Assembly (NCBI GenBank): GCA_025451845.1
Contig: JANWJS010000028.1
Coordinates: 154,189-218,188 of the forward strand
Direction of reading: 5' to 3'
DNA length: 64,000 bases
From: Steroidobacteraceae bacterium
GTDB lineage: Bacteria > Pseudomonadota > Gammaproteobacteria > Steroidobacterales > Steroidobacteraceae
Positions 6,622-62,310 of this stretch are shown here, in pieces. The notes under the pieces were generated by a model. The model was not told the origin of the DNA. It saw nothing but the letters and a program-made list of their open reading frames with translations, and did no database searches. Both the position numbers and the translations under genes were made by a program. Within the stretch, counting starts at the first letter, position 1, and each line of letters begins with the position of its first letter.

Positions 6622-8706
6622 CTAGCGATGGCCCGCCAGCTTGCTGTGGGTGCGTTCGGCCTCGGCGCGCGACTCGGCATCCTCCGGCCGTTGCCAGCTG
6701 CGCAGCAGCTCCGCAAATTGACCCGCGGGCAACGGCGGGCTGAAATGAAATCCCTGGTACTGATCGCAACCGAGGCTGCGCAGGAACTGCAGCTGATCTG
6801 GCGTCTCGACTCCTTCGGCGACGACTTTGAGCTTCAGGCTGTGCGCCAGGGAGATGATGGCCTGAACGATCGAGGCGTCGACCTCGCAGTCGAGGTCGCG
6901 GACGAACGAGCGATCGATCTTCAGCTTGTCGATCGGAAAGCGGCGCAGGTAGTTGATGCTCGAATAGCCCGTGCCGAAATCATCGACCGACACCAGCACG
7001 CCCATGCGGCTCAATTGCTCGAGAATGGCCGCGGACTCCTCCGGGTTGGTCATCACCGCGCTCTCGGTGAGCTCGATCTCGAGATAGCGCGCCTCGAGCC
7101 CGGCGCTTTGCAGCGCGCCGGCCACGACCTCGAGCAGATCGCCCCGCCGGAACTGCGTCGCCGCGACGTTGACGGCCACACGCAACTGCGGCAGGCCGCT
7201 ACGCTGCCATTCGGCGCACTGGCGGCAGGCCTCCCGCAACACCCAGGAGCCGATCTCGTTGATGAGCCCGCACTCCTCCGCGAGGGGGATGAACTGGTCG
7301 GGCTGGATCAGACCGCGTTGCGGATGCCGCCAGCGGATGAGCGCCTCGGCACCGTAGACGTCGCCGGTCTGCGTATCGGGCTTCGGTTGATAGTGCAGCT
7401 CGAACTGCCCAGCATCGATGGCCGCGTGCAGATCGCTCTCCAGACTCACGCGTCCAACCGTTACGGAGTCCATCCCCTCGGCAAAGCATTGCACGTTATT
7501 GCGTCCGCGTTGCTTCGCGCAGTACATGGCAACGTCAGCACGCGCGATCAGACTGTCAGCCGAGCTGGCGTCGGTCGGAAAGTAAGCCACACCGACGCTG
7601 CTGGTGACGTGCAACTCGACACCAGAAACCTGCATGGGAGCTCGCAACGCTTCCTTTGCCCGCTGTGCGACGGCCACCGCATCCTCCGGAACAGGAGACG
7701 GACTGATCACGACGATGAACTCGTCGCCGCCGGTGCGGGCAACAGTGTCGATGTCACGCACCACGGAGCGCAGGCGCCGCGAGACCTCATCGAGCACCAC
7801 ATCCCCGGCGCGGTGTCCGAGCGAGTCGTTGATGAGCTTGAATCGGTCGAGATCCACCGCCAGCAGCGCAAAGGGCTGCCCGTCGCGGTTGGCGTGCGCC
7901 ATGGCCTGCGCCAGGCGGTCATCGAGCAGCACGCGGTTGGGCAGGCCTGTCAGCGCATCGTGCGTGGCCAAGTGGCGCAGCTGCCGGTTCGCCGCTTCCA
8001 GATTCTCCGTACGCGCGGCGACGACATTCTCCAGCGTCTCCACCTGCGCGCGCAGAGCCCTCTCGTGCTGCCACTTGCGTGTCAGCGCGCTCGCGCACTG
8101 CAGCACCTCGATCGGCTCGAACGGCTTCTTGAGGACGAGCAGCCGGTCCGTCTGCCCGAGACGCGCGACGACATCATTCCAATCGTAGTCGGAGTGCGCC
8201 GAGCAGATCACCACCTGCACATCCGGGTCGACCGCCCAGAGCCGCTCGATGGTCTCCAGGCCGTCCCAGCCGGGAGGCATGCGCATGTCGATGAAGGCGA
8301 TCGCGAAGTGCCGTCCCGCGGCCACGGCACGCTTAGCATGCTCGACGCCATCCTGGCCCTGCAGCGCGAATTCCAGCGCGTAGTGTGGACGCTCGCACCG
8401 CGCTTCCGGAGCATCCCCGAAGAGCAGTGATTCGACACTGGCGAGCTTTGTAGCCGGCTCGGCGCCGCCGCCGAGTATCTTGTCAAAATCCCGATGAATG
8501 GCCGGATTGTCATCAATGATGAGAATCCGCGTCTGATCGTGACAGGCTGTCTCCCCGGTGCGAGGCTCCGTCCCTGCGCCTCGCCCGTCGGGCCGGCTGC
8601 CGCCGTCCAAAATCGTTCCAGACGATTTTGTGCTCGGCCCATCCTGGGCCTCACCCCGTCGGGGCCGGCTATCGCCGTCCAAAATCGTTCCAGACGATTT
8701 TGTCAT
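6622..8706 (-). CDS. Response regulator with GGDEF and EAL domains
   Basis: The predicted product is 694 residues. After an odd N-terminal extension of about 55 residues (see the repeat entry) comes a receiver domain (ILIIDDNPAIHRDF, phospho-acceptor D in FIDMRMP, and KKPFE), a short coiled coil, a GGDEF domain (DALTGLPNR, RTGGDEFIVV) and an EAL domain (EALIRWRHP, DDFGTGYSS, KIDRSFV, VAEGVET). The GGDEF motif is intact, and the EAL motif and key acidic residues look intact, so it could make and break cyclic di-GMP. ATG 8706 overlaps the kinase stop as ATGA and has a strong AGGAGG ribosome site inside the kinase gene, so the pair is translationally coupled. Confidence 0.9.
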   Translation of the reverse strand: MTKSSGTILDGDSRPRRGEAQDGPSTKSSGTILDGGSRPDGRGAGTEPRTGETACHDQTRILIIDDNPAIHRDFDKILGGGAEPATKLASVESLLFGDAPEARCERPHYALEFALQGQDGVEHAKRAVAAGRHFAIAFIDMRMPPGWDGLETIERLWAVDPDVQVVICSAHSDYDWNDVVARLGQTDRLLVLKKPFEPIEVLQCASALTRKWQHERALRAQVETLENVVAARTENLEAANRQLRHLATHDALTGLPNRVLLDDRLAQAMAHANRDGQPFALLAVDLDRFKLINDSLGHRAGDVVLDEVSRRLRSVVRDIDTVARTGGDEFIVVISPSPVPEDAVAVAQRAKEALRAPMQVSGVELHVTSSVGVAYFPTDASSADSLIARADVAMYCAKQRGRNNVQCFAEGMDSVTVGRVSLESDLHAAIDAGQFELHYQPKPDTQTGDVYGAEALIRWRHPQRGLIQPDQFIPLAEECGLINEIGSWVLREACRQCAEWQRSGLPQLRVAVNVAATQFRRGDLLEVVAGALQSAGLEARYLEIELTESAVMTNPEESAAILEQLSRMGVLVSVDDFGTGYSSINYLRRFPIDKLKIDRSFVRDLDCEVDASIVQAIISLAHSLKLKVVAEGVETPDQLQFLRSLGCDQYQGFHFSPPLPAGQFAELLRSWQRPEDAESRAEAERTHSKLAGHR
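8560..8703 (-). repeat. Two in-frame copies of a 72-bp palindrome-bearing element
   Basis: Starting right after the ATG of the GGDEF-EAL gene, the minus strand holds a 72-base unit (8632-8703) followed by a second copy (8631 down to about 8560). The first ~45 bases match almost perfectly; the second copy then diverges through single-base gaps. Each copy contains the perfect inverted repeat AAAATCGT-CTGGA-ACGATTTT (8-bp arms, 5-base loop). In translation each gives TKSSGTILDG followed by a Ser-Arg-Pro-rich stretch. The reading frame is kept because 72 is a multiple of three. The receiver domain starts only after the second copy, so the unit looks inserted into the coding start. Confidence 0.85.
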
Positions 8707-10733
8707 GCGCTCCTCCTCTGCGGCTCTACCTCGGCCGCCGCGATCGGCAACCGCACCGCGAAACAAGCTCCACGACCCGGGCCTTCGCTGCGCGCGCTGA
8801 GCTCACCGCCCATCTCCTTCGCCAGAATCGCGCTCGCGTGCAGCCCGAACCCGTGGCCATCCTTCTTGGTGGTGAATCCAAACTCGAACAGCCGCTTCAT
8901 CGCCTCGGCAGCGATGCCGACTCCCGTATCCTCCACCTCAACGGCAAAAAAGCCAGGAGGCAACGCGCGCAGCCGCACGGTGAGCTCTCGCGGCCCGTGC
9001 GTCCGGTCACGCAGCGCATGGCGGGCATTGCTGAAAAGATTGCCCAGGATCTGCAGCAGCTTGTGCCGGTCCACCATCACGCGGTCGACGCCGCGATATT
9101 CGCGGTGCACGGTCACCTCCATGCTGGTCGAGAAGTGCAGCACCAGGGCGTGCTCGATGAGCTCCGCCGCATCGAGCTGCTCGAGGCTGCCGCCGCGACG
9201 CGCGTAGGTCTGCTGGGCGGCGACGATTTTGCCGATGTGCTCGACGTGGGTGACGACTGCCTGCGCCTCATCGCTGAGTTCACGGTTTTCCGTGATCAGA
9301 TGCTCGCCGAGCTGCTGCAGGTAAGCGGGCAGCTCCTTGCCGCGCGGATCGCTCGCGAAGAACTCGCCGAGCCGCGGACCCTGCTCGGTGATCAGCTTCG
9401 CCGCCCGCTCGACATTGGCGACCTTCGATGCCTTCAGGCGCGATTGCAGCAGCACGGCTGAGACACCGAGGCTGTTGAGGACATTACCAACGCTATGCAA
9501 TACGCCAGTTGCAACCTCCGCCATGCCGGCATGGCGTGACGCTTGCTGAAGCTGCAATTGCAGCTGAAGCCGTCGCTCTTCCTGGCGCACTTGCTCACTC
9601 ATGTCCCATGACACACCTAGAAGCCGTCGCAGGCGGCCTCCGTCATCTCGAGATAGCCGCGCGTGCGCCTGCAGATGAATGGTTCCCCCGCTGGGCGCCG
9701 ACACTCTCATGCGTACCGCACAAGTCTCACGATCCCCGCTGAGTGCCGCGCGGACCGCTGCCTTCAGTTCCGCCACGTCCTCCGGATAGAAGCTCGCGAG
9801 AAGCGCCCCCGGGTGCTCGCGCGGATCGAGCCCGGCCGCTTTGATGGACGGGATCTCATTCTCCGTCCATATGATGCGCCGCCCGGCCAGATCGTATTCC
9901 CAACAGGCGATTCCTGCCGCCTCGGTGGCGAGAGTGAGCAGGCTCTTGCCGTGCTGTAGGCTTTCGTTGAGCTCGGCGAGCCGCATCGCAGCGCGCCGGG
10001 TCGTCGACTCGAGATGGGCATCGTAGAGCGTGGCGACCAGCGTGATCGCGACCACGCCCAGGGCAATCATGCCGATCATCACGGCAAGCCAGTCGTTGTC
10101 GAGCGCGGCTCCGCCGCCGTAGCAGTATGACCCGGGCGCCAACATCGAGGCGGCCATGCCCGTGTAGTGCATGCCGGTGATCGCAAAGCCCATGACGATG
10201 GCGGCACCGATGCGCGCCAGGCTCATCAGCCGCGACTCGCCGGTGCGCAGCCGGAAGAAGAGCCACAGCGCGACGAACGAGGCCATGATCGCGATGGCGA
10301 CCGAGGCGGAAACCAACAGGGGGCTGTAGGTGATCGCCGGCACGATCTGGATCGCCGCCATGCCGGTGTAGTGCATGCCGCAGATGCCGGCGCCCATGAA
10401 GAGCGAGCTGACGGCCAGCCGCCGCAGTGACAGATCGGCGAGGCTGGAGATGGACAACGCAAACAGCGAGGTCAGCATCCCGATGAAGAGAGATGCCAGG
10501 TTGATGAGCAGGTTGTAGCGCAGTGTGATGCCGACGGAGAAGGCCAGCATGCCGATGAAGTGCATCGACCAGATGCCGACGCCCATCGAGACCGCACCGC
10601 CGAGCAGCCACAGCCGTCCCGCCCCGCGCTCGGCGCCGGCCACCCTCTCCGTCAGCCGCAGGGCGGTGTACGAAACGAGGATGGCCACGATGACCGAAAG
10701 GGTCACGAGCCATGGATTATAGGTGGCGTGCAT
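8703..10733 (-). CDS. MHYT-domain sensor histidine kinase
   Basis: From ATG 10733 the product is 676 residues. The N-terminal ~250 residues form a seven-helix MHYT domain with its three repeats (SMHFIGM, GMHYTGM, GMHYTGM), whose Met/His residues are proposed to bind copper and sense O2, CO or NO. A PAS-like segment follows (AAGIACWEYDLAGRRIIWTEN). The transmitter has a probable phosphorylated His in TGVLHSVGNVLNS, an N box NLFSNARHAL, G1 EDTGVGI and a TTKKDGHGFGLH lid/G2 region. It is the first gene of an operon with the GGDEF-EAL regulator, its presumed partner. The longer upstream open frame does not resemble protein and overlaps the permease gene. Confidence 0.9.
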   Translation of the reverse strand: MHATYNPWLVTLSVIVAILVSYTALRLTERVAGAERGAGRLWLLGGAVSMGVGIWSMHFIGMLAFSVGITLRYNLLINLASLFIGMLTSLFALSISSLADLSLRRLAVSSLFMGAGICGMHYTGMAAIQIVPAITYSPLLVSASVAIAIMASFVALWLFFRLRTGESRLMSLARIGAAIVMGFAITGMHYTGMAASMLAPGSYCYGGGAALDNDWLAVMIGMIALGVVAITLVATLYDAHLESTTRRAAMRLAELNESLQHGKSLLTLATEAAGIACWEYDLAGRRIIWTENEIPSIKAAGLDPREHPGALLASFYPEDVAELKAAVRAALSGDRETCAVRMRVSAPSGGTIHLQAHARLSRDDGGRLRRLLGVSWDMSEQVRQEERRLQLQLQLQQASRHAGMAEVATGVLHSVGNVLNSLGVSAVLLQSRLKASKVANVERAAKLITEQGPRLGEFFASDPRGKELPAYLQQLGEHLITENRELSDEAQAVVTHVEHIGKIVAAQQTYARRGGSLEQLDAAELIEHALVLHFSTSMEVTVHREYRGVDRVMVDRHKLLQILGNLFSNARHALRDRTHGPRELTVRLRALPPGFFAVEVEDTGVGIAAEAMKRLFEFGFTTKKDGHGFGLHASAILAKEMGGELSARSEGPGRGACFAVRLPIAAAEVEPQRRSA

Positions 10734-10830
10734 CCATGGGAAATTGCCCGAGATACCGCTGGCGTTGCAGTGTGCGTATCTCAGTTCCCGGTTGCCGGGC
10801 GGGCAACTGTGACGCAGTCGACAGTCAGTC

Positions 10831-12204
10831 TCAGTCGGGAGAGACGCTCGCGGTGCATGGCGAGCGGCGGCGGGCGCGCCGCCCGAGATAGGCAAGGACC
10901 GCCACGGCAAGCGCGAGGAGGCTGACGTGCAGCTCGTGGGCAAGCGATGGCGTGAGGGCCATCGCAATGAGTACCGCGGCCATACCGGCTATGGCGGCGT
11001 AGCTCAGCCATGGGAAGAGCCACATGGTCAGCACAGGTGCAGGAGCGCCTGCGCGCTCGCGCTGGTACCGCAATTTCACGTGCGCGACGGCGACGATCAT
11101 GTAGACGAACACCATGAGCGCGCCCGCGGCGTCCACCAGAAACGCGAACACGCGTTCCGGCGCAGCGACTGCCGCCAGAATACCGACGACGCCCGCGAGC
11201 GCGCAGAGCAGCACCGACTTGACCGGCACCTTCCGGCGGTTGAGTTGAATCAGTGCCTGCGGCGCATCGCCGTGCTCCGCCAGCACGAACAGTACACGCG
11301 AGCAGACGTAGAAGGCGGAGTTGAGGCAGGACAGCACCGCCGTCAGGATGATGACGTCCATCGCCGCGCCCGCCCAGGCGAAATGCATGGTTCTCAGGGC
11401 ATCGGTGAACGGTGACTTGCCGACCGTGATGCTGTTCCAGGGCACGATGGCGACGATGAAGAAGATGGAGCCGACATAGAAGGTGAGGATGCGAACGATG
11501 ACGGAGCTCGTGAGTTGCGCCACCGCGCGCGCCGGTTCCGCCGATTCGACGGCAGCCACCGTGATGATTTCCGCGCCTGTGAGCTGGAAGAACACGGTAA
11601 CGGCGCCCGCGAGCACCGCTACCGCCCCGTACGGCGCGAAGCCGCCATGGCTCGTCAGATTGGCGAAGGTCGCGCCGTGAGGTGAGGCCCAGCCGAAGGC
11701 GTATGAAGCCCCGATCGCGATGAAGGCGATGATGGCGGATACCTTGATCGAGGAGAACCAGAACTCGAACTCGCCGTAGGACCGCGCCGACATGAGGTTG
11801 ACGGCCGTCATCGCCGCCACGAGGATGCACCCGAGCAGGCCCGCAGGCAGCGGGATCCAGGCGTGCAGGATGTTCGCGCCGGCGATCGCCTCCACCGGCA
11901 CCACGATCATCCAGAAGTACCAGTAGAGCCACCCGGTCACGAACCCGGCCCACGGCCCGAGCCCGGCGCGCGGAAAATCGCTGAAGGAGTGCACGGTGGG
12001 CAGGCTCATCGCCATCTCGCCGAGCATCCGCATCACGAGGAGCACCAGCGTGCCGGTGATGACGTAGCTCACTACGATGGCCGGTCCGACGGCGGCGATG
12101 GAGGCGCTGCTGCCGACGAACAGCCCGGCACCGATGATCCCGCCGATGGAGATCATCGTCAGGTGTCGCGGCTTGAGCGATCGACTGAGCTCAGCGGGAG
12201 CCAT
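10831..12204 (-). CDS. APC-family amino acid permease (GABA permease type)
   Basis: The 457-residue protein starts at ATG 12204 behind GAAGGGG. The first helix carries the APC signature MISIGGIIGAGLFVGSS, and about twelve membrane helices follow. YGEFEFWFSSIKVSAI and the GAEIITVAAVESAEP segment are typical of the AAT subfamily (GabP, AnsP, CycA), which import amino acids with protons at the inner membrane. Substrate is not predictable from this alone. The ribosome site lies in the short gap after serS, so it may be read through from the serS operon. The open frame extends far upstream only as a shadow of serS. Confidence 0.87.
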   Translation of the reverse strand: MAPAELSRSLKPRHLTMISIGGIIGAGLFVGSSASIAAVGPAIVVSYVITGTLVLLVMRMLGEMAMSLPTVHSFSDFPRAGLGPWAGFVTGWLYWYFWMIVVPVEAIAGANILHAWIPLPAGLLGCILVAAMTAVNLMSARSYGEFEFWFSSIKVSAIIAFIAIGASYAFGWASPHGATFANLTSHGGFAPYGAVAVLAGAVTVFFQLTGAEIITVAAVESAEPARAVAQLTSSVIVRILTFYVGSIFFIVAIVPWNSITVGKSPFTDALRTMHFAWAGAAMDVIILTAVLSCLNSAFYVCSRVLFVLAEHGDAPQALIQLNRRKVPVKSVLLCALAGVVGILAAVAAPERVFAFLVDAAGALMVFVYMIVAVAHVKLRYQRERAGAPAPVLTMWLFPWLSYAAIAGMAAVLIAMALTPSLAHELHVSLLALAVAVLAYLGRRARRRSPCTASVSPD

Positions 12205-61544: not shown

Positions 61545-62310
61545 GGCGTTCCGACAGCCTCCCTTTCTCGATCTCGTAGACCCGTTCCATCCGATCCGCC
61601 AGGCGGGTGTCGTGGGTCACCACGACGAGGCTCGTACCCCGCTCGCGGTTGAGCTCGAGCATCAACCCGAAGACCGACTCCGCATTGGCACCGTCCAGGT
61701 TGCCGGTGGGCTCATCGGCGAGAACGATTTTCGGTTGCGTCACGAGTGCGCGCGCGACAGCGGCGCGCTGCCGCTCGCCGCCTGATAGCTGGTGCGGACG
61801 ATGATCGAGCCGCTGCCCGAGACCGACTCGCTCCAGGAGCTCGCGCGCCGCTTTGCGCGCCTCGGGTACCGGCGCGCGGCGCACCAGAAGCGGCATGGCG
61901 ACGTTCTCCAGCGCGGAAAACTCCGGTAGCAGATGATGGAACTGATAGACGAATCCGATGGCACGGTTGCGCAGCTCACCCCGCTCTTTCTCCGTCAGCC
62001 GGTGAATGTCGCGCCCGTCGACCAGCACCTGTCCGCGGGTCGGCTGATCGAGCCCGCCCAGGATTTGCAGCAGGGTCGTCTTGCCGGAGCCGGAGGCGCC
62101 GATGATCGCCACACGCTCTGCGGCGGCCACGGAAAGCGCGGCACCCCGCAAGACCTCGAGAATGACCGGCCCCTGGTGGAAGCTCTTGGAGACATCGCGC
62201 GCATCCAGCACCAACGATCCATTGCTCGGCCCATCCTGCGCCGCGCCCCCGCCGCTGCGCGGGCCGACACGCTCACGCGTGTCGTCAGAAGTGGCTCCCG
62301 GCTTACTCAT
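61501..62310 (-). CDS. lolD: Lipoprotein-releasing ABC transporter ATPase LolD
   Basis: ATG 62310 gives 269 residues, about 35 longer than E. coli LolD because of a polar N-terminal extension with [10 protein letters not shown] (see findings). The ATPase has Walker [14 protein letters not shown] loop [12 protein letters not shown], signature [17 protein letters not shown], Walker [13 protein letters not shown] and H-loop [10 protein letters not shown]. It powers transfer of lipoproteins from LolC/E to LolA. The start overlaps the preceding gene's stop by eight bases. Confidence 0.95.

Follow-up and report, generated by a model that had tools for sequence, protein, structure and literature searches.

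A four-hairpin repeat related to tRNA-linked repeats at the start codon of a GGDEF-EAL regulator and at other gene starts of its genome

Two repeat units at a stop/start overlap

The window analysed here, a 64,000-nucleotide stretch of a Steroidobacteraceae draft genome (97% complete, 58 contigs), holds a regulator gene whose start codon is followed by repeated DNA, raising the question of what this DNA is, how it came to lie there and what it does to the gene. The regulator (6622..8706, minus strand; 694 aa from the ATG) has a Response_reg-GGDEF-EAL architecture (Pfam PF00072, PF00990 and PF00563). Upstream lies a gene that Pfam describes as a MHYT-PAS-HATPase kinase (8703..10967, minus strand), and its TGA stop is part of the junction: in the ATGA overlap (8703..8706, minus strand) the regulator start (8706-8704) and the kinase stop (8705-8703) are combined. 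The insertion point is the 3' edge of this overlap. Unit 1 (8631..8702, minus strand; 72 bp) lies directly 3' of ATGA, reads CAAAATCG...GAGCA over its 72 nt, is of the variant ...DSRPRRGEAQDGPS and has its hairpin 1 at 8680-8702; unit 2 (8559..8630, minus strand; 72 bp) abuts it, is of the variant ...GGSRPDGRGAGTEPR and has its hairpin 1 at 8608-8630. Both begin with CAAAATCGTCTGGAACGATTTTGGACGGCG and end with GCA, and CAAAATCGTTCCAGACGATTTTG occurs at 8608-8630 and again at 8680-8702. The original prediction, of two abutting 72-bp units placed in frame directly after the ATG and adding 48 residues, is borne out by the sequence, the reading frame of the lengthened regulator being kept. Its claim of a duplication is right about the head-to-tail order but not about identity, as the two copies match over roughly their first 34 nt only and differ in their 3' halves (...SRPRRGEAQDGPS versus ...SRPDGRGAGTEPR). 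The window units are two variants of one element and no fresh duplication. The regulator orthologue in stretch L149 has a single unit, of the second type, and a further relative, P0001, has three, the third partial. At Rfam gathering scores the whole window yielded a tRNA only, other matches being sub-threshold.

A BLAST search with 8555-8710 found the sequence at 41 places in this genome, query site included, with the best other match (E 5.5e-50) far above chance, so the concern that there might be no other copy fell away. We then used a covariance model built from 20 copies, which gave at least 72 matches at E<=0.01, a lower bound because only 119 of 6450 first-look candidates were scored in that search, and 96 at E<=1 in a wider search that scored 150 of 6815. 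The model also marks a second, decayed copy in the window (62222..62288, minus strand; 30 bits, E 1.9e-4), converted from contig position G000:C28:216410-216476. Seventy-one of the 72 copies, second tandem units included, were examined with their flanks; C29:19-92, at a contig end, was dropped. Covariation in hairpin 1 was counted in the 20 model copies and, separately, in the start copies only; pair 13/19 is U-A in 7/20 and C-G in 7/20 of the model copies. YGA precedes 42 of the 71 copies, by a model that was itself trained on these columns. We rejected carriage by phages or plasmids: phage records contained 1 partial match in 50,697 and plasmid records 6 in 72,556, all from E. coli or Salmonella.

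Gene-start copies and empty sites in congeners

Of these 71 copies, 23 sit exactly at the ATG or GTG of different genes: 16 are direct fusions, 6 reach the gene through a short leader and a GTGA restart, and 1 lies just upstream of the own ATG of an MFS gene, with which it is out of frame. By our reading of sequence and Pfam, the direct fusions are the regulator, PEP mutase, saccharopine dehydrogenase, HAD/IGPD (hisB-like), PTS EIIC, cysD, homocysteine methyltransferase, a DegT aminotransferase, a cyclase, a class-II tRNA-synthetase-like protein, a B12/radical SAM protein, argC, murG, two proteins with no Pfam match, and a putative anti-sigma factor, likewise with no Pfam match and named from our reading of its sequence. 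A Pfam domain was found in 17 of 20 scanned start-copy proteins, the first domain beginning at residue 14 to 90. In the regulator, cysD, DegT and murG no in-frame start separates the insert from the conserved part, so their translation has to start within the element or right before it. Five more copies begin with ATG or GTG with no gene behind (C15:114932, C17:41319, C27:101080, C28:15538 and C39:61187). Three of these positions (C27:101080, C17:41319 and C15:114932, seen as L018, L019 and L020) are intergenic copies one base shorter, GTGACAAAATCGCAGGAGCGATTTTGG, which by eye appear within a larger inverted repeat, such as GCAAATGTCTTTGCCGCGGGG...CGCGGCAAAGACATTTGC in L018, and look like a composite MITE.

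The six leader-bearing copies represent a long form of the element, in which the unit is extended by about 40 bases, with a TGA in frame whose letters are shared with a new GTG or ATG. The leader peptide is MTKSSGTILDGDSRPEGVSR, ended by the stop, and the restart reads VNFDSR... This form was present in 11 copies (6 from this genome and 5 from metagenome-assembled genomes, MAGs, the latter including two orthologous pairs, murG and grxC) among 24 loose-pattern matches; the TGA/restart overlap is intact in all 11, and from the restart the frame stays open, either on into the gene or as far as the stretch extends. In this genome the long form precedes a sigma-54 response regulator, nadE, trpG, an FAD oxidoreductase and, with names taken from sequence alone, an RNase T-like gene and glyS.

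We further compared the sites with stop/start overlaps in general. Sixteen of the 23 start copies lie at such overlaps, judged by an open frame of at least 200 codons running into the TGA of the NTGA start, compared with 5 of 53 other ORFs in the window (Fisher p 2.5e-7; the background is a greedy ORF list and includes two TTGA cases), and 7 of the 23 lie away from them. The open frame before the murG insert runs for 415 codons; the overlaps were checked against orthologues for the regulator, murG and trpG only. A pattern search among MAGs gave 42 matches, of which we judged 23 to be gene starts and the other 19, whose frames are short, to be non-coding. In 21 of these 23 an upstream frame of at least 150 codons ends at the TGA, the remaining two being at contig ends; the set is not independent, as it includes the near-duplicates L122/L148 and orthologues of murC, murG, gatB and grxC. 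L121 and L168 run off their stretches, and their genes lie outside the sequence seen. The preference for overlaps could reflect selection rather than targeting.

Comparison with congeners revealed the sites without the element, for example GCGCATGA^GC (a caret marks the junction). A regulator match was found in 10 of 30 genomes, and in the five congeners to which the comparison was limited, those aligned over the full length, the insert is absent in all five, as the original prediction had proposed to check. Four of them (G003, G004, G007 and G012) have the ATGA overlap, the empty site reading ...GAGCGCATGA^GCG... in G003; the fifth, G017, has a different start. Similarly, trpG is empty in 17/17 congeners (G016 reads ...GGGCCTGTGA^GCGCGCGG), and murG is empty in 13/14, the murG of G016 and that of G025 (partial) having been dropped. 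Occupied and empty orthologous sites, which we take as the mark of a mobile element, were thus found together at the regulator, trpG and murG; this evidence is between species, with one genome per species. The fourteenth murG, that of G014 (L223), has a decayed insert of like layout, which suggests an independent or old insertion at that junction.

The repeat therefore behaves like a mobile one, being dispersed, in frame and absent from orthologues, and the original prediction of a mobile palindromic repeat was right in kind. Some twenty unrelated proteins are lengthened by it at their front end, by about 24 residues or more, and stay intact, a clean natural case in which one short repeat supplies the N-termini of many unrelated proteins. 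ATGA gene junctions can evidently take insertions with neither reading frame lost, and automatic annotation will count the inserted residues as part of each protein.

Insertion sites across the class and the origin and role of the copies

A pattern scan of GTDB species genomes returned 78 stretches, with copies at gene starts in MAGs and at non-coding sites elsewhere; the pattern demands TGAC and is therefore uninformative on flanks. The stretches come from genomes named as Gammaproteobacteria, from genera that we take to belong there, or from genomes placed only as Proteobacteria/Pseudomonadota, with the exception of one Cyanobacteria MAG (L151), likely a chance match. At least two of the MAGs are congeners of the window genome (L061 is identical to L122 over 600 nt, and L065 to L186 over 347 nt). 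With a flank-free pattern, 24 of 369 genomes of the class matched, this one included, giving 35 copies, or 31 distinct ones after removal of 2 from this genome and 2 seen twice. The triplet preceding these 31 is CGA in 17, TGA in 5, GGA in 3 and another in 6, so that the element follows (Y)GA in 22. As judged by eye, 11 of the 31 lie in a tRNA-type T-arm (GTTYGA^element), a further copy stands behind a tmRNA arm (L282) and another behind a tRNA D-arm (L300); L177 holds a tRNA-Arg-like copy with two units in the T-loop. The tRNA-type junctions read GGTTCGA^element^ATCC with no target duplication beyond one ambiguous A, and only at these sites is the 3' boundary exact. Within the genus, copies L064, L069 and L070 of congeners follow GGTTCGA beside tRNA genes, and model R1, built from the copies of the window genome, finds such GGTTCGA-flanked congener copies (L064, for example, at E 7.2e-18). 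The original prediction had known of no such element in this lineage, whereas elements of the same kind are spread through the class, often in tRNA-type T-arms.

Two further observations concern the surroundings of class-wide copies. In L276, L289 and L303 the element seems, by eye, to be nested in a CGTC-REP-like repeat (GTCATTCCGG/GTCATTTCGG ... GGA^element), once more 3' of GA. A GOLLD RNA match (L184:6125-6610), just over the Rfam threshold (154.8 against 150), lies in a MAG stretch that has 20 tRNA genes and one element copy.

We consider it probable that this short repeat, 72 bp with four small hairpins, is a non-autonomous mobile element akin to the RtT/TLR (tRNA-linked repeats) of Gammaproteobacteria; it would insert on the 3' side of (Y)GA, and ATGA junctions would tolerate it. 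The copies themselves display the dispersal, the 5' junctions, the empty sites, the in-frame fusion to real genes and the kinship to tRNA-arm copies. In the mechanism that we propose, the element would be actively transposed and would insert directly 3' of (Y)GA, presumably guided by a trans-acting enzyme that reads its hairpins, and in this genus it would also have entered ATGA/GTGA stop/start overlaps. Insertion there would be tolerated because neither the stop of the upstream gene nor the start of the downstream gene is lost, and a stop-free 72-bp unit, its length a multiple of three and so frame-keeping, only lengthens the N-terminus. Additional units may have been added serially at the same point, giving one, two or three, and ribosomes terminating on the upstream gene may open the hairpin. 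The added peptide would be nearly neutral: differences from the consensus at codon positions 1, 2 and 3 are 0.141, 0.125 and 0.130. With no third-position excess, we rejected protein-level selection on the peptide, which, under no codon-level constraint, looks like a passenger. Against our reading count that no linked enzyme was found, that seven start copies lie away from overlaps and that a clear T-arm surrounds only 11 of the 31 class-wide copies.

The same data bear on other accounts of the insert. The added residues might be an old N-terminal domain of the regulator rather than an insert, and a protein search with the regulator N-terminus did return 6 Response_reg-GGDEF-EAL orthologues among its 15 matches (10 of the 15 sequences were inspected). 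However, 8 other proteins were also matched, so that the same residues precede unrelated proteins, and the five congeneric orthologues lack them, which refutes this account and leaves it next to no probability. In one of the 15, the predicted protein P0008, the element peptide stands close to the C-terminus, which probably reflects a mis-called frame. The N-terminal residues encoded by cysD matched nothing in the protein collection except themselves (1 of 4 candidates). The original prediction had also raised the possibility that the hairpin masks the ribosome site, and in this account the hairpin alone would control translation of the regulator. Hairpin 1 is suitably placed (-7.4 kcal/mol, beginning at nucleotide +5 of the gene), but in a comparison pooled across genes the ATG is on average more open in the 23 start copies than at 15 congener empty sites (4 regulator, 11 murG), with an unpaired probability of 0.59 against 0.40, and the local MFE is weaker (-20.2 against -25.4). 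This part of the prediction gained no support, and we regard masking as very unlikely. Still less probable is mobilisation of the repeat as a REP by a RAYT, a Y1 tyrosine transposase. Small palindromes in high copy and dispersed are features shared with GTAG REPs, and G003 (16 copies) and G004 (5 copies) carry a Y1_Tnp gene; yet the window genome, with 72 copies, has no Y1_Tnp (PF01797) match in its 97% complete draft in a search whose control was positive in 5/14. Among 40 relatives, Y1_Tnp is absent in G014, G018 and G022 (16-17 copies) and present in G023 and G024 (no copies), so there is no consistent link to copy number, unlike in GTAG REPs mobilised by RAYTs, and we rejected this mover for the window genome.

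A more serious alternative, possible though in our view doubtful, is that the element is a cis-regulatory CsrA/RsmA module, in which hairpins 1 and 4 show a loop GGA by the start codon and let CsrA control the gene that follows; within operons of tRNA and rRNA genes such a module would act as a CsrA sponge. CsrB repeats have CAGGA(U/A/C)G in loops (PMC7652899), and by the motif descriptions in that source (loop GGA, CAGGA(U/A/C)G or ANGGAN) the element family is strongly enriched in such motifs. The motif CA(N)GGA(U/A/C)G in the 3' half is present in 23 of the 31 class-wide copies (shuffled mean 1.3, maximum 4), in 23/48 non-start copies of the window genome (1.4, maximum 6) and in 11/22 of its start copies (0.8, maximum 4), against shuffles that keep dinucleotides. 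In the last hairpin the GGA loop is kept though the stems differ (61/83 non-coding and 20/28 start-type copies); the comparison of 57/83 loop-GGA with 5.8% is with a plain shuffle, and its hairpin picker chose other hairpins in some rows. Hairpin 1 has GGA in or beside the loop in 44/70 copies of this genome, under a model that itself favours GGA. Two genes of this genome are csrA. In vitro, CsrA is bound by the E. coli TLR RNA RrB via GGA motifs, with the same assumed for RrA and RrF (PMC8144298); the CsrA sites of sdiA lie wholly within its coding region (PMC8144298, PMC7652899). However, 19 other E. coli TLRs have CsrA-binding scores below 0.01 and are predicted non-binders in PMC8144298, the host genes here are functionally mixed, only half of the start copies keep the motif, suggesting that it decays at start sites, and the loop motif may be read by the transposition enzyme instead. 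A sub-threshold rsmX match over one element copy (L163:5038-5148; 34.7 bits, gathering score 56) fits the GGA loops. A broader version, which we think unlikely, is that a CsrA-binding module of TLR kind serves as a mobile operator at operon stop/start junctions, with the start codon kept ahead of it and, in the long form, a leader and TGA/GTG restart, so that throughout the genus essential biosynthetic genes would become translationally coupled and come under post-transcriptional control. Both the mobility that we favour and the possible CsrA role are testable, as the genus shows exact protein-coding junctions with empty sites in congeners.

Relation to known repeats

Repeats linked to tRNA genes have been known in E. 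coli since 1978, and PMC8144298 describes their function as still not known in 2021; a TLR is found within a tRNA or rRNA operon, together with a duplicate, 18-19 bp long, of the 3' end of the tRNA or rRNA before it (PMC8144298). TLR/RtT (Rfam RF00391, Enterobacteriaceae) resembles the element in its insertion point, with a duplicated tRNA T-arm, GGTTCGA^...GAGTA^ATCC, and the E. coli MG1655 RtT after tRNA-Pro shares both the junctions (GGAGGTTCGA^...GAGTA^ATCC) and the hairpin order. The core by which we define the kinship, four hairpins between (Y)GA^ and ...GAG(T/C)A^, is present, and the consensus folds into four hairpins. The kinship runs through intermediates. A start copy and an intergenic copy of the window genome scored 32 and 34 against E. 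coli RtT (shuffle maxima 38 and 40), while L193 and L290 scored 94 and 67 (shuffle maxima 29 and 35). The copy in L193 has 73.7% identity over 109 nt to E. coli loci that bear the annotation RtT sRNA (E 9e-4, the best of 8 matches listed), in a search in which 4109 of 5426 genomes matched at an E limit of 10, weak matches included. With RF00391 itself the window gave no match up to E 5, and L193 reached 38.4 bits (gathering score 45). The best Rfam match of the window copy is AaHKsRNA22 (RF02902, Aggregatibacter sRNA 22), with the same hairpin order, although the match is weak (23.2 bits, E 0.021, under the gathering score of 39.8). In contrast to TLR/RtT, 23/71 copies of the window genome lie at gene starts, most of them translated, and the hairpin 1 sequence differs. 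The window units lie between two protein genes rather than in a tRNA/rRNA operon with a 3'-end copy. As the window copy has neither this setting nor an RF00391 match at the gathering score, two defining features of that family, we file the element as a variant of the RtT/tRNA-linked-repeat kind and not as a member.

Other short palindromic repeats are likewise read in frame, namely GTAG/CGTC REPs inside ORFs and the Rickettsia palindromic elements (RPE), and the original parallel with the latter holds for this behaviour, being read as protein. REPs have been described at the NH2-terminal end of ORFs from several species, and no transposase is linked to CGTC REPs; many NH2-terminal REPs were judged non-coding since translation may start further down (PMC3733652). 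A CGTC REP has a CGTC tag by an 8-9 bp stem that starts with A-T pairs, a 4-5 nt loop and a CCA tail (PMC3733652). Set against this description, the antisense strand of the element, CGTCCAAAATCGTTCCAGACGATTTTGTCA, fits in tag and loop size, whereas its first pair is C-G and its tail differs. Among the best matches in the open-licence PMC literature we found no account of start-codon inserts of this kind, a weak negative. The element differs from the N-terminal REPs in that several genes have no start codon between insert and conserved part, and in its site, a stop/start overlap. Since N-terminal REPs have been reported before (PMC3733652), what is new here is the link to tRNA arms, the stop/start target and the evidence of translation.
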